A stretch of DNA of 64,000 bases from Porphyromonas vaginalis. GTDB taxonomy: Bacteria > Bacteroidota > Bacteroidia > Bacteroidales > Porphyromonadaceae. Location: NCBI RefSeq assembly GCF_958301595.1, contig NZ_CATQJU010000001.1, forward strand, positions 992,001-1,056,000, read 5' to 3'. Positions 3,783 to 55,084 of the stretch are shown here, piece after piece. The position numbers and the translations under genes were made by a program. Each line of letters starts with the position of its first letter. Positions within the stretch are counted from its first letter, which is position 1. The notes under the pieces were generated by a model that searched no databases, was not told the origin of the DNA, and worked only from the letters and a program-made list of their open reading frames with translations.

Positions 3783-4068
3783 ATCAACGCCAGCTGGCTA
3801 CAATAATTTAGAGCCGACTACATATCAAAACGGTCCCGCGTCGGGGAAAAGTGATTTCCACGTGGATATTTCAAAATCTCCACGTGGAGAATAAAAAATT
3901 CTTCGGAGGAATGAAATGAAACTTCGGAGGAATGAAATGAAACTTCGGAAGAAATAAATCACGCCCACGTGGAAAATAAAAAACATCCACGTGGAGAATC
4001 TCAAATCTCCACGTGGAAATCCGCAAAAGGCGGGAATCGGACGAATCCCTCCGTAAAGATATGTAAAG
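3783..4068 (+). repeat. CCACGTGG element, copy 1
   Basis: Copy of a ~285-bp dispersed element. CCACGTGG sites start at 3858, 3880, 3965, 3987 and 4009 (spacing 22, 85, 22, 22). Between sites 2 and 3 lie three ~21-bp tandem units of the form CTTCGGAGGAATGAAATGAAA. The left arm has CAATAATTTAGAG and ACTACATATC; the right end reads CGTAAAGATATGTAAA. Short open frames crossing it are low-complexity by-products. Other copies: 19852-20140 (inverted), 37553-37840, 54802-55084. Confidence 0.9.
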
Positions 4069-4184
4069 TCGCAAAGAGCGGATCGGAGGTGTCGGAGTGA
4101 AACGTCGTCCTGCTTTCGTCCCCGTCATCCCCCCATGTCGTCCTGCTTTCTAAGTTCATGTGCAAGTAAAAAGCGAAGTTTTTT

Positions 4185-4398
4185 CTCGTTTCGCAAGCTC
4201 GGTCTACTTCTCTTCGGGGGACCGCTCGTCGGGGTGGGGGCTCCCACCCCTTGCCGCGGGGCGCTCCCGGAGCGGAGACTTTCCTTTCTGAACTTGACTC
4301 GGAGGACTCGCTTCTCTTCGGGTGAACCGCTCGGCGGGGTGGGGGCTCCCACCCCTTGCCGCGGGGGCGCTCCCCGAGCGGAGACTTTCCTTCCTTGG
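4185..4398. repeat. Two tandem ~105-bp GC-rich hairpin repeats
   Basis: Two direct copies 105 bp apart, each with TTCTCTTCGGG, CCGCTCG, a perfect stem GGGGTGGG-GGCT-CCCACCCC (4231-4250 and 4336-4355), TTGCCGCGGGG, GAGCGG and AGACTTTCCTT. An outer CCGCTCG/CGAGCGG pairing can enclose each hairpin. They abut the 3' end of the IS110 transposase gene. The stretch 4069-4184 between this and the CCACGTGG element shows nothing I can name apart from a repeated CGTCCTGCTTTC. Confidence 0.75.
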
Positions 4399-4399
4399 A

Positions 4400-5437
4400 C
4401 TAGGCTCGAAGAGCTCTCTTCGCTTCGTGGTCCAGCTCGAAGTCGCAGTCGTGCAGAACCAAAGAGAAGAGAATGTGTACGAGCTTATTGTTGACATTGT
4501 TGAGGATGACCCCGTAGGGCTTACCTTGGGCTTTCATGCGTAGGTAGTATTGTCTTAATGTTGGGTTATGAGTTATGGCACTTCGGGCTGCTTGGGTCAA
4601 GATTCCTTTTAGCCGTCGGTTACTGTAGCCACTTGTGTTGGCTTTGTGAAAGACTGAGCTCCCAGAGCTCTCGTAGAAAGGTGCTATACCGCAGTAGCTA
4701 GCCATCTTCTTGGGACTCCAGCTCTTGAAGTTGTCGGTGTAGATGATCAGCATGACAGAGGTGACGAGCCCCACTCCTTTGCAGGAAATGAGGTGTAGGT
4801 AGTTGCGGTACATCTCCTCGTCTTCCTTGATGATCTCGAGCATTTGGCGCTCGCACTCCTTGATGCTTTGGGTCAAGAGGTCAATGGCTTTTTGGGCATT
4901 TCGGTAGATGAAGTTGTCGGATTTAGACTCGCTAGAGATGTACTGTTTTTCCTTGGAGCTAACTATCTTAGCCTGCCTCTCAGCAACTAGTGACTGCCTG
5001 TAGAGGAAGAGGTCTCGTAGGCTACGCATGTTTCCGTCCAGAGGTTTATAGAGAGTGGCTTTGGAGCGGAAGCGTAGAGCGTAGTAAGCGATCATCTCCG
5101 AGTCGGCTTTGTCATCCTTGCCTTTGCGCAGCCCCATGCTACGCTTGATCTGCAGGGCGCTCTCGCGCCAGATGTCTAGACCATTGCCGTAGAGCCAGTC
5201 GCAGAGTGCGCGATCGTATCCTCCTGTAGTCTCGCAGCAGAAGAGCATGGTGTCGGTCTTGACTCCTCGACCAGCGTTCTTCTTGCTCCAAGAGACGAGG
5301 CTCCGGAACCCCTTAGGGTTGTTTTCTACAGTGGTGTAGGCGAGCTGCTGCTCGCTGTCTGATTTTGATTCGTAGTGAATCAAGGTGGCATCTAGTTTCT
5401 CTTTGGATACGTCAATGCCAATAAAGTAGTATTTCAT
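4400..5437 (-). CDS. IS110-family transposase (DEDD/serine recombinase)
   Basis: 345-residue recombinase. The N-terminal RuvC-like DEDD domain shows Asp9 (GIDVSK), Glu69 (CCETTGGYD) and Asp109/Asp112 (KDDKADS). A middle helical region follows. The C-terminal Transposase_20 domain has CKGVGLVTS (about 219-227, helix-hairpin-helix-like) and APFYESSGSS, where Ser257 or Ser258 is the expected nucleophile. Length fits the family and no frameshift is visible, so it may be active. IS110 enzymes excise and insert a circular DNA guided by a bridge RNA. Candidate RNA lies immediately upstream. Confidence 0.95.
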   Translation of the reverse strand: MKYYFIGIDVSKEKLDATLIHYESKSDSEQQLAYTTVENNPKGFRSLVSWSKKNAGRGVKTDTMLFCCETTGGYDRALCDWLYGNGLDIWRESALQIKRSMGLRKGKDDKADSEMIAYYALRFRSKATLYKPLDGNMRSLRDLFLYRQSLVAERQAKIVSSKEKQYISSESKSDNFIYRNAQKAIDLLTQSIKECERQMLEIIKEDEEMYRNYLHLISCKGVGLVTSVMLIIYTDNFKSWSPKKMASYCGIAPFYESSGSSVFHKANTSGYSNRRLKGILTQAARSAITHNPTLRQYYLRMKAQGKPYGVILNNVNNKLVHILFSLVLHDCDFELDHEAKRALRA

Positions 5438-19851: not shown

Positions 19852-20140
19852 ATTTACACATCTTTACGGGGAAATTTGTCCGATTCCCTCCTTTCTCGAA
19901 TATCCACGTGGGGAATCTCAAATCTCCACGTGGATGTTTTTTATTTTCCACGTGGGGGCGTTTTGATTCTTCCGAAGTTTCATTTGATTCTTCCGAAGTT
20001 TTATTTCATTCCTCCGAAGAATTTTTTATTCTCCACGTGGGGATTTCGAAATATCCACGTGGAAATCAGTTTTCTCCGACACAGCACCGCCTCGACATGT
20101 AGTCAGATCTAAATAATTGTAACGAGCCGGCGCTGAATTT
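19852..20140 (-). repeat. CCACGTGG element, copy 2 (inverted)
   Basis: Same element as 3783-4068 on the opposite strand. CCACGTGG starts at 19904, 19926, 19948, 20033 and 20055, i.e. spacing 22, 22, 85, 22, the exact mirror of the other copies. The TTCCGAAG/CCTCCGAAG tandem units lie between 19970 and 20020. It sits between the cobalamin operon and nrnA; the rest of the gap 19759-20264 holds CTCTAAC and GGCTGTTGGCTGTT words. Confidence 0.9.
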
Positions 20141-37302: not shown

Positions 37303-37552
37303 GCGCGGCGATGTTATCATACGGTTACTCGTTTGTTTCGTTTCGCTGACAAGGGAATATGTGGCGCAAGCTCGCCTTCGGAAAGAAGTGTCGCTAACTT
37401 GACAAAGTTTCCTCCGTATGAAACTCCAGTTTCACCAGGGTTGACGCATTATATATAATGATCTCATCGACCACTCTACTCCTCGCAGGTCGCTCATGTG
37501 TAGCTGTTGGCTGTTGGCTGTTAGCTAGTAGTGCTAGTGCTCTTGGCTGGGC

Positions 37553-37840
37553 AAATTCGACGCTGGCTCGTTGCAATAATTTAGAGTTGATTACATATCG
37601 GTACGGCGCAGTGTCGGGGAAAAGTGATTTCCACGTGGATATTTCGAAATCCCCACGTGGAGAATAAAAAATTCTTCGGAGGAATGAAATGAAACTTCGG
37701 AAGAATCAAATGAAACTTCGGAAGAAATAAATCACGCCCACGTGGAAAATAAAAAATATCCACGTGGAGATTTGAGATTCCCCACGTGGATATTCGAGAA
37801 AGGAGGGTGTCGGACGAATTTCCCCGTAAAGATATGTAAA
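37553..37840 (+). repeat. CCACGTGG element, copy 3
   Basis: CCACGTGG starts at 37631, 37653, 37738, 37760 and 37782 (22, 85, 22, 22). The first two sites and the 14 bases between them form an almost perfect 30-bp palindrome centred on ATTTCGAAAT. The 1122-bp gap 37284-38405 has no gene: besides this element it has TGTTGGCTGTTGGC, AGTTAGAGATTAGAG and GCTAACAGCTAACAGC words and a duplicated ACATTATATATAATGA-like sequence (37448 and 37953), then the MITE below. Confidence 0.9.
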
Positions 37841-38101
37841 GATGCTAGAGGTTAGAAATTAGAAGTTAGAGATTAGAGATCCGATCACTCTGATAGCTCC
37901 GATGGTTCCGATAGCTAACAGCTAACAGCTAACAGCCAATCCATGGGTGACACATTATATATAATGAGCGCATCTATGCCTCGCTTGTCGCTAATGGGTT
38001 GCTTCTGAAAAGACGATTATAATGCGTCAGCCCTGCTAGTTTCACCCAAGTGGTACTGATAGTTAGCTCATTTCTGTAGAGTGATCTACTCGCCCCCTCA
38101 A

Positions 38102-40203: not shown

Positions 40204-41685
40204 TTAAAGTTTAGCTTGGCGCATATCCTTTGACTCTGCCAGGGCTTTGTGGAAGGCGAAGGCTTTCTCCAGACAAACAGGTGTCTGTCCCTCCGAAGCC
40301 TGAGCCAGATAAGCACGTAGCAGTGGACGGTAGTCGGGATGGGCGCAGTTCTCTATGATGCGCTCAGCACGCTGTCGTGGAGAGAGCCCTCGGAGGTCGG
40401 CGATACCGTACTCAGTGATGAGTACCTTGACCGAGTGCTCGCTGTGATCCACGTGGCTCACCATCGGCACGATAGCGCTGATAGCGCCGCCCTTAGCGGT
40501 CGAGGGCGTGGTGAAGATAGAGATGTAACCATTGCGGGTGAAGTCGCCCGAGCCACCGATACCGTTCATCATCTTAGTGCCGAGGACGTGCGTTGAGTTG
40601 ATGTTGCCATAGATGTCTGCCTCGAGAGCGGTATTCATCGTGATGACCCCGAGACGGCGCACGATGCCTGGGTTGTTGGAGTACTCCTCCGGGCGCAAGA
40701 GTAGCTTGTCCTTGAAGAAGTCCCAGTTCTGATAAATGTCTAGGATAACATCGCGACTGACCGAGAGCGAACAGCCTGAAGCAAACTTAACGCGACCCTC
40801 CTTCATCAGCCCAATGACGGCATCCTGGATTACCTCGGTGTAAACCTCAAAAGGTGGGATCTTAGGACTCTTGCCTACGGAGGCTAGGACCGCATTGGCG
40901 ATATTGCCTACGCCACTCTGTAGCGGTAGGAACTCACGGGGGATGCGTCCCGTGCGGATCTCCTCCTCGAGGAACTTCGTGACATTGTCTCCAATTGCCT
41001 GCGTCACCTCATCGAGCGGCGCAAAGCCTCCGTCATCGTTTGGCTCGCTAGTCTTGACGACCGCTACGACCTTCTTCGGGTCGAGCTGTACGTAAGGCTT
41101 GCCGACACGATCAGAGGGCTTGTAGATAGGTAGCTCACGACGTGCGGGTGGGTCAAGAGGCTCAGCGATGTCGTGGAGTCCACGTATCTTGGCGGGGTGA
41201 CGGTCATTGATCTCGACGATGATCCGGTCTGCGAGACGGCAGATGGTGGGTAGGATACCGACGCCCGTGGTGGGTACCAGCTGACCATCTTCCGTTAGCT
41301 CGGCAGCCTCGACGATAGCCACATCGATCTTGCCAAAGAAGCCAGCACGCATCTCCTGTGCTAGCTGCGAGAGGTGCATGTCGCAGTAAGCTACCTCACC
41401 GCTATTGATCTCAGCACGTAGGTCTTTGTTAGACTGATAGGGTGCTCTAAACTTGATCGCATGAGCACGTGCTAGGGCTCCGTCGAGGCGGTCGCCTGTC
41501 GATGCTCCCGTGAAGACGCTTATGCGGAAGGGCCTTCCTGCTGCGTGCTCCTCCTCGGCGTAATGAGCTATGGCTTGTGGCACTACCTTAGGGCAACCAG
41601 CAGGCGTAAAGCCACTGAAGCCTACCTGATCGCCATCGTGAACTAATCTCGCTGCCTCTTCGGCAGTCATGATTGGGTAAGACAT
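40204..41685 (-). CDS. Acetyl-CoA hydrolase/transferase family (succinyl-CoA:acetate CoA-transferase type)
   Basis: 494 residues. CoA-transferase family I: GFSGFTPAGCPKVVPQAIA at the N-terminus, VFTGASTGDRLDG, and the catalytic region NTALEADIYGNINS with the expected active Glu, GIGGSGDFTRNG, TEYGIADLRGLSPRQRAE. Moves CoA between acetate and succinate (or similar acids), fitting amino-acid fermentation to short-chain acids. The ATG at 41685 (MSYPIMTAEE) is chosen over an upstream in-frame start near 41754, which lies on the -7 box. Monocistronic. Confidence 0.9.
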   Translation of the reverse strand: MSYPIMTAEEAARLVHDGDQVGFSGFTPAGCPKVVPQAIAHYAEEEHAAGRPFRISVFTGASTGDRLDGALARAHAIKFRAPYQSNKDLRAEINSGEVAYCDMHLSQLAQEMRAGFFGKIDVAIVEAAELTEDGQLVPTTGVGILPTICRLADRIIVEINDRHPAKIRGLHDIAEPLDPPARRELPIYKPSDRVGKPYVQLDPKKVVAVVKTSEPNDDGGFAPLDEVTQAIGDNVTKFLEEEIRTGRIPREFLPLQSGVGNIANAVLASVGKSPKIPPFEVYTEVIQDAVIGLMKEGRVKFASGCSLSVSRDVILDIYQNWDFFKDKLLLRPEEYSNNPGIVRRLGVITMNTALEADIYGNINSTHVLGTKMMNGIGGSGDFTRNGYISIFTTPSTAKGGAISAIVPMVSHVDHSEHSVKVLITEYGIADLRGLSPRQRAERIIENCAHPDYRPLLRAYLAQASEGQTPVCLEKAFAFHKALAESKDMRQAKL

Positions 41686-54801: not shown

Positions 54802-55084
54802 CAGGACTGGTGCATTACAATAATTTAGGTCTGACTACATATCAAAGCGGAGCTGTGTCAGGGAAAAGTGATTTCCACGTGGATATTTCGAAATCCCCAC
54901 GTGGAGAATAAAAAATTCCTCCGAGGAATGAAATGAAACTTCGGAGGAATGAAATGAAACTTCGGAAGAAATGAATCACGCCCACGTGGAAAATAAAAAA
55001 CATCCACGTGGAGATTTGAGATTTTCCACGTGGATGTTCGAGAAAGGAGGAAATCGGACGAATTTCCCCGTAAAGATATGTAAA
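54802..55084 (+). repeat. CCACGTGG element, copy 4
   Basis: CCACGTGG starts at 54875, 54897, 54982, 55004 and 55026 (22, 85, 22, 22). Same left arm (TACAATAATTTAG, CTGACTACATATC) and right end (CGTAAAGATATGTAAA). Flanked by GGCTGTTAGCC and CTCCGATCGCTCCG words on the left and TTAGAGGTTAGAAG words on the right, which fill the gap up to the pgpH promoter. Confidence 0.9.

Follow-up and report, generated by a model that had tools for sequence, protein, structure and literature searches.

The window analysed here, a 64-kb stretch of the Porphyromonas vaginalis genome (G000; positions 992001-1056000 of its 2.517-Mb chromosome), raises the question of why a short dispersed element should carry five palindromes CCACGTGG at set distances from each other, and what such an arrangement is for. 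A preliminary description, made from the letters of the window alone, had reported four copies of this element and had proposed either a phased array of protein-binding sites or an RNA with regular stems. The observation was confirmed and the interpretation is partly supported, as set out below for the window, the rest of the genome, up to 60 relatives, and the phages, plasmids and IMG/VR contigs in which the array was also searched.

Array copies in the window

The window contains 21 CCACGTGG sites, against a mean of 0.94 and a maximum of 4 in 100 dinucleotide shuffles. Twenty of the 21 fall into four groups of five, spaced 22/85/22/22 bp from start to start, with mirrored spacing (22/22/85/22) in the inverted copy at 19904-20055, exactly as first described; the remaining site stands outside the groups at 40449 (given earlier as 40450). 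The ends derived from a profile built from the copies lie within 16 bases of those first proposed in all four copies, and the 85-bp interval does hold 21-bp tandem units. The features of the window are:

3797..4066, plus strand: array copy 1, long type, from the profile built from copies; sites P1-P5 at 3858, 3880, 3965, 3987 and 4009
3900..3956, plus strand: 21-bp-unit core of copy 1 (TTCGGA units), limits approximate and set by eye; common to five genomes of the genus
19854..20124, minus strand: array copy 2, long type, from the profile; sites at 19904, 19926, 19948, 20033 and 20055
37569..37839, plus strand: array copy 3, long type, from the profile; sites at 37631, 37653, 37738, 37760 and 37782
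37754..37795, minus strand: predicted terminator-like hairpin of copy 3, formed by the last two palindromes (17 pairs) and followed by a T-rich tail
54815..55083, plus strand: array copy 4, long type, from the profile; sites at 54875, 54897, 54982, 55004 and 55026

The copies are flanked by genes for an S9 peptidase and an IS110 transposase (copy 1), CobD and a DHH protein (copy 2), a TonB receptor and a CdaA-type cyclase (copy 3), and an LRR protein and a 7TM-HD protein (copy 4), and since these genes are mutually unrelated the array is not tied to one gene function. GC-rich direct repeats are present at 4160-4400, between copy 1 and the IS110-type transposase gene (4400-5437, minus strand).

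A genome-wide family of arrays

Pairs of CCACGTGG separated by 10-18 bases occur 263 times in the P. vaginalis genome, while a reversed control pattern does not occur at all, and the search for spaced sites revealed a genome-wide family of at least 110 copies on the chromosome after copies split by insertions had been merged by rule. This set was assembled from a left-end pattern (100 of 102 matches listed), a right-end pattern (99 matches) and the first 100 of the 263 pairs; the latter reach 802 kb, so that copies recognisable by the array only are under-counted beyond this point, and a drop in density after 1.4 Mb is not safe given the partial list of pairs.

The spacing had been called invariant, and this holds for 81 of the 89 copies that have both end markers and no insertion, in which site 1 and site 5 are 151 bp apart. 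The other eight show the variable spacing that had been named in advance as an argument against a phased array, by 1 bp (152 bp in four copies, 150 bp in one), by one unit less (130 bp in two) or by collapse (one). Of 52 full-length copies retrieved, 34 retain all five sites intact, and 33 copies (30 fetched loci and three from the window) align with few gaps over approximately 270 bp, from about GTTACAATAATTTAG to CCCCGTAAAGATATGTAA, after which most continue into a degenerate RRTTAGA tract.

The array consists of about eight repeats of 21-23 bp, each with a near-palindrome. The AT content has a period of 21-22 bp; phasing at 10-11 bp was weak or absent. The long type of the window represents a subtype that can be written PPCCCPPP, whereas the relative G020 has mostly PPPCCPPP; the lengths of the two are nearly equal (151 and 152 bp) because a core unit takes the place of the third left palindrome.

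One array (G000:C1:1282001) is collapsed to a single CCACGTGG between the element ends, the outcome expected from recombination between sites. Four further copies are split by insertions of about 1.6-1.8 kb, and in the two that were inspected the insert encodes a transposase with an rve integrase core, has ends TGTCCTCTTCCTG... or TGTCTTACCCTG... and is bordered by apparent 3-bp duplications in the array core, as judged by eye; by their layout these inserts are presumably IS3-like. The two are different rve-type insertion sequences, both in array cores (L093:2400-4250 and L098:2430-4480). The IS end TGTCCTCTTCCTGAAAAAAGTACACAG was also found in arrays of G013 (L049) and G020 (L180 and L360), and the arrays are therefore targets of insertion.

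Arrays in related genomes

The full element has a match in six of 41 genomes, P. vaginalis included, and the core is present in five of 26 genomes of the genus (G000, G020, G018, G013 and G002), so that related arrays occur in four of the 25 others. No core match within 3 mismatches was found in 21 of the 26 genomes, and any role of the arrays is thus not needed throughout the genus, which counts against a function for the host. A remnant with a single site in G016 (L035) resembles the collapsed copy of P. vaginalis. The whole element had no match among the phages or plasmids searched, and the exact core pattern had none in IMG/VR contigs.

In G020, where the core has 128 matches (100 of them listed), an alignment of 86 copies was centred on CTTCGGAGGAATCAAATGAAACTTCGGAGGAA. 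Most have three outer sites per side, 22 bp apart, with 64 bp across the core, and the register is kept on both sides in 58 of 68 non-redundant copies, among which the letters differ widely. In G013 the same core is flanked by palindromes spaced at about 23 bp, for the most part TTCCTACCTAGGAA to the left and, to the right, the reverse complement of this sequence. The core of G002 has 155 matches (the 100 listed are all exact) and its palindromes are mostly of CTCC..GGAG forms that vary between copies. Pairs of CCACGTGG are few in G013 (6) and G002 (3), in which other palindromes replace most of them, so five fixed CCACGTGG sites cannot be regarded as the essential design. The phased array proposed at the outset thus stands as to its register, which is kept despite changes of letters, and as to the symmetry of the A sites described below; it does not stand as to the 22/85/22/22 layout, which belongs to one subtype, nor as to CCACGTGG, which is replaceable.

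Conservation decreases from the core to the flanks

In bacteria, dispersed repeats tend to be scattered, and those that are mobile to be conserved at the ends. The arrays present the contrary picture, with ends that vary and a near-invariant centre. In G020 the profile yielded 26 copies from one contiguous stretch of 400 kb; their mean pairwise identity amounts to 0.946 for the core (the middle 32 bp) and 0.775 for the palindromes, and falls to 0.579 next to the palindromes, 0.594 in the spacers and 0.28 outside the array on both sides; the profile was built from long copies of P. vaginalis, and strongly changed copies may be missed. The core of 21-bp units is therefore the most conserved part of the array, and it is the centre, not the ends, that the copies have in common. 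A recent spread predicts uniform identity and a MITE predicts conserved ends, and neither fits this gradient. The corresponding core identity in G002 (0.995, 36 copies) is biased by the way in which the copies were selected and was set aside.

The gradient is most simply read as purifying selection on the core, and the invariance of the core could in part be due to gene conversion centred on it. A near-invariant middle with outer palindromes that vary from species to species points to a job that the arrays share.

One covarying hairpin and a terminator-like signal

Among the 15 pairs of outer sites (A1-A3 and B1-B3) in the 58 in-register copies of G020, a single pair, B2-B3, is clearly more complementary within copies than between them (z 5.4, Fisher P 1.8e-5; next best pair, z 1.6). 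Higher values (z 6.7 and 7.8, Fisher 1.9e-8) are inflated by out-of-register copies, and the in-register figures stand. Both inner half-sites of B2-B3 are changed in ten copies, of which seven are exactly complementary and of three kinds. Correction of quasi-palindromes during replication is a known source of changes that look compensatory, and could have produced those at B2-B3. The A sites keep their own symmetry when they change (A1, z 3.6; A3, z 3.7; A2, z 2.2), which the B sites do not (B1, 0.8; B2, -0.1; B3, 0.7).

On the minus strand, 49 of 68 G020 copies have a T-rich run behind B2-B3, and for 47 of the 68 a stable hairpin is predicted as well; ten of these 68 copies are out of register. 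A stable hairpin with a T-run is found for other neighbouring pairs of the minus strand in only 6, 8 and 15 of the 68 copies, and for B2-B3 on the plus strand in 17. Copy 3 of the window has one terminator-like signal on its minus strand, against 0.6 in shuffles. Both marks of an intrinsic terminator, a GC-rich hairpin and a T-run, are accordingly seen in these predictions.

The alternative first proposed, an RNA with regular stems, holds for this hairpin and does not extend to the entire array. In the RNAalifold folds only core letters are paired, with almost no covariation term; the energies for the two strands are -3.5 and 0.0 kcal/mol in G020 and -5.4 and -3.2 kcal/mol in G002, and the z values against column shuffles are -27.5 and 0.4, and -8.0 and -7.1, respectively. 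Association column by column was swamped by the relatedness of the copies, and a complementarity scan in G002 gave no strong segment. A stem of A3 with B1 around the core was also considered: complementarity is seen in 11 of the 12 copies with changes on both sides, but across the copies a change on one side is not associated with one on the other (Fisher P 0.79). At the gathering score of Rfam no array was matched, the matches being one tRNA in the window and one SAM riboswitch and one tRNA in six pieces of G020.

Gene context

By simple ORF calls, 60 copies of P. vaginalis lie between tandem (25), divergent (24) or convergent (11) genes, and 26 copies of G020 between tandem (14), divergent (9) or convergent (3) genes, the background of that part of G020 being 57 tandem, 23 divergent and 11 convergent among intergenic gaps longer than 150 bp. 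Overlap with a called ORF was seen for 7 of the 60 and 2 of the 26 copies. Where the flanking genes are in tandem, they are mostly read in the direction that a B2-B3 terminator would stop (28 to 11, P 0.009; 18 to 7 in P. vaginalis and 10 to 4 in G020). For the 24 copies of P. vaginalis that lie between divergent genes, there is nothing for a terminator to stop.

Spacing and orientation along the chromosome

The position of the copies on the chromosome, a question already raised by the preliminary description, proved informative, as the copies are over-dispersed: in four species they are more evenly spaced than chance. For the copies of P. vaginalis (at least 110) the coefficient of variation (CV) of the gaps is 0.62 against 0.99 in simulations, with 9 gaps below 10 kb for 38.7 expected. 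This evenness is strongest between 0 and 1.4 Mb (CV 0.43 against 0.98; 4 gaps below 10 kb against 30.0) and weaker from 1.4 Mb (CV 0.65, P 0.004; 5 against 9.7). In G020, 93 positions obtained from 100 listed of 128 matches give 2 gaps below 6 kb for 20.7 expected, and the 27 copies of the contiguous 400 kb give 2 for about 7.9 (P 0.0004-0.001) under a null that restricts placement to the 76 intergenic gaps measuring at least 200 bp. Among the matches listed, gaps below 6 kb number 3 of 70 in G002 (18.9 expected) and 5 of 73 in G013 (14.3 expected), from 93 and 86 listed places respectively, with overlapping matches merged and contigs with a single match left out. As a control, RRTTAGA tracts of the same 400 kb (21 places) have 4 gaps below 6 kb for 5.4 expected, and are mildly regular by CV (P 0.029).

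The overall CV of G020 (1.09 on listed positions) is not low because the listed positions are sparse after 1.65 Mb. They suggested a depletion at the terminus (9 from 1.65 Mb against 22.8), which was rejected since the profile scan still finds arrays there: in seven samples of 20 kb each, taken between 1.64 and 2.08 Mb, it detects 7 arrays (one is split) over 140 kb, compared with 27 over 400 kb elsewhere.

The P. vaginalis chromosome has a single parS-like site, at 825308, where the sampled GC skew changes sign. Orientation depends on the arm, with 39 plus and 12 minus copies on the right and 22 plus and 33 minus on the left (P 1.8e-4), and does so too when no split is chosen (P 5e-5, turning points at 0.93 and 0.02 Mb). 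There is no such bias in G020 (P 1.0; 0.16 without a split), in which the origin is placed only roughly, the parS-like site being at 550252 and the sampled change of GC skew at about 0.75-0.85 Mb. Arm-dependent orientation is consequently not a general trait of the arrays and may be one of the long type of P. vaginalis, arising for example from strand-biased insertion.

Turnover and placement

For 19 full-length copies of P. vaginalis, at least 400 bp of flank could be matched to the contiguous 400 kb of G020; such a match was obtained for 25 profile hits altogether, of which six were partial copies, some matching through repeats. The nearest G020 array is no more than 600 bp away for nine of the 19 and farther off for the other ten. 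Two of the nine shared placements correspond to one and the same G020 array (415150), and since 27 arrays in 76 intergenic gaps would give about one third by chance, any excess of shared places is mild. Long-type copies are differently placed in the two species. Within the window, copy 1 belongs to a segment of about 5 kb that is absent from the syntenic place of G020, copy 2 has no array within 7 kb at its syntenic place, the right flank of copy 4 leads to a place whose nearest array is 2.8 kb off, and no syntenic match was found for copy 3.

Alignment of six places of G020 that lack the array often revealed a TTAGA-type tract, and showed that the insert brings other repeats with it; these tracts and co-inserted repeats are the reason why a simple transposition product is not evident. 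No clear target-site duplication was seen at the six places, whose flanks consist of repeat tracts and some of which align poorly. In the window, several ends of synteny blocks fall less than about 200 bp from a G020 array (233473, 248243, 274261 and 335099), as would be expected of recombining arrays, but arrays and breaks alike are intergenic. The flanks of the G020 array at 415150 map to two distant arrays of P. vaginalis (706547 and 953455), a rearrangement with its breakpoint at the array.

Comparison with known systems

BOX, RUP and SPRITE of Streptococcus pneumoniae are modular intergenic elements with many copies, SPRITE being terminator-like; the arrays share the modular, intergenic and multicopy nature and differ in sequence and architecture. 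REP and BIME are likewise multicopy intergenic palindromes into which insertion sequences insert, as into the arrays, and differ from them in structure. The sites bound by Noc and SlmA, matS and parS are palindromic protein-binding sites spread over the chromosome, and parS has a CACGTG core in common with the array palindrome; these are single sites, whereas an array has eight units and is present in at least 110 copies in a genome with one parS-like site. CRISPR arrays were discarded because the spacers are common to the copies and not unique.

A literature search gave the BrickBuilt papers as the nearest match, and otherwise nothing or other subjects. According to the accessible portion of one of these, BrickBuilt of Porphyromonas gingivalis is an intergenic, dispersed element with 23-nt tandem units, present in 19 copies in one strain and with IS5-like terminal inverted repeats (PMC4596501). 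Thus, as far as that portion goes, both are intergenic and dispersed in the same genus with tandem units of about two helical turns, and the text available mentions no conserved core with exchangeable palindromes in BrickBuilt (PMC4596501). The arrays do not belong to BrickBuilt, whose 23-nt unit AGAYCATARTATCCTCTCRTRTG differs from the array unit CTTCGGARGAATSAAATGAAA when compared by eye. For the pneumococcal elements, the words 'evenly' and 'spacing' do not appear in the text of the review PMC10969869.

What the arrays may be for

We tentatively favour, at somewhat less than even confidence, a protein-binding DNA array combined with a one-way terminator and kept for a role at the scale of the chromosome, because the core is conserved, the spacing even, the symmetry of the A sites kept, B2 paired with B3 and followed by a T-run, and the flanking genes biased in direction. 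The approximately eight units of 21-23 bp, each with its near-palindrome and an AT-rich spacer, would seat a dimeric DNA-binding protein, so that the putative protein would recur every two helical turns on one face of the DNA. Binding, probably cooperative, would be nucleated on the near-invariant core units, while the outer palindromes would follow a changing specificity of the protein. The last two palindromes with the T-run of the minus strand would act in vivo as a one-way terminator of transcription. Copies would be kept mostly more than 6-10 kb apart for a task of nucleoid or domain organisation and not for neighbouring genes, and mobile array-bearing cassettes would renew and relocate them. 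A narrower version, which we consider speculative and rather unlikely, would make the arrays a new kind of chromosome-organising site in Bacteroidota, with periodic anchors about every 12-20 kb; the candidate protein would coat the eight phased sites, its specificity for the outer sites varying between species while the core is constant, and fresh copies would replace lost ones and so maintain the spacing. To our knowledge, little is known about the chromosome-organising proteins of Bacteroidota. Single ParB_N matches occur in G020, G018, G013 and G002, and G000 has four, of which two fall below the cut-off; a ParB/Noc paralogue as the array protein was rejected since none is common to the array-bearing species. 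Against the favoured reading are the shared placements (9 of 19), which are not clearly above chance, the copies between divergent genes, the mild regularity of the control tracts and, in G020, the lack of an orientation bias and the CV of 1.09.

The main rival reading, which we regard as doubtful and yet serious, is that the arrays belong to a MITE-like non-autonomous family whose sites bind a transposase and whose even spacing reflects transposition immunity, as known for Mu, Tn3 and Tn7, with no function for the host. Many short, mostly intergenic copies without a transposase (at least 110) were indeed found, ten of the 19 mapped full-length copies have no G020 array within 600 bp (six of these places were aligned), the right end of the long type abuts an RRTTAGA tract in most of the 33 aligned copies by eye (copy 1 of the window being an exception), and inverted ends GAGGTGCTGGG...CCCAGCACCTC can be seen, again by eye, in a subset of the G020 copies. 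Array-bearing copies move like MITEs, though as a class the arrays lack conserved terminal inverted repeats: flank identity among the 26 G020 copies (0.28) is no more than chance, and it is the centre and not the ends that is conserved, the reverse of a MITE. Nor was there a clear target-site duplication in the six alignments, an array in phages or plasmids (whole element) or in IMG/VR contigs (exact core pattern), or a transposase with array-like ends in the regions inspected. We consider it improbable that the array acts through a transcript, be it a structured RNA or a small RNA, or that it is a plain terminator module. The compensatory changes of B2-B3, the minus-strand signal of copy 3 and of 47 of 68 G020 copies, and the short core pairing, which outdoes column-shuffled alignments, agree with this view, but the folds are confined to the core with almost no covariation, one site pair of 15 covaries, Rfam matches no array in the window or the six G020 pieces, and 24 of 60 copies stand between divergent genes. 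Least probable, in our opinion, is a neutral minisatellite whose copies are homogenised by gene conversion and spread by homologous recombination between intergenic repeats; its tandem units, the arrays near the ends of synteny blocks and the nesting of copies among other repeats would suit it, but a near-invariant core beside varied outer units, a fixed register and over-dispersion are unexpected under neutral drift. The distance of several kb that copies keep in four species would reflect either a rule of transposition, in which case immunity would act on elements that measure 165-270 bp and have no transposase gene, or a rule of chromosome structure, in which case Bacteroidota would possess periodic anchor sites.

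Other repeats around the copies

Degenerate 7-base repeats (RRTTAGA and TTRGCTG) are present at 37500-37900 of the window and on the 3' side of most long copies, and the intergenic regions around the copies also contain 9-base repeats that are CTAGAGTCA-like and CTCCGATAG-like. A second dispersed repeat, with ends ATTATATATAAT and GATGCGTCAGCCCTG/CAGGGCTGACGCATC, lies beside several long copies, for example at about 37430-37500 and 37940-38040.
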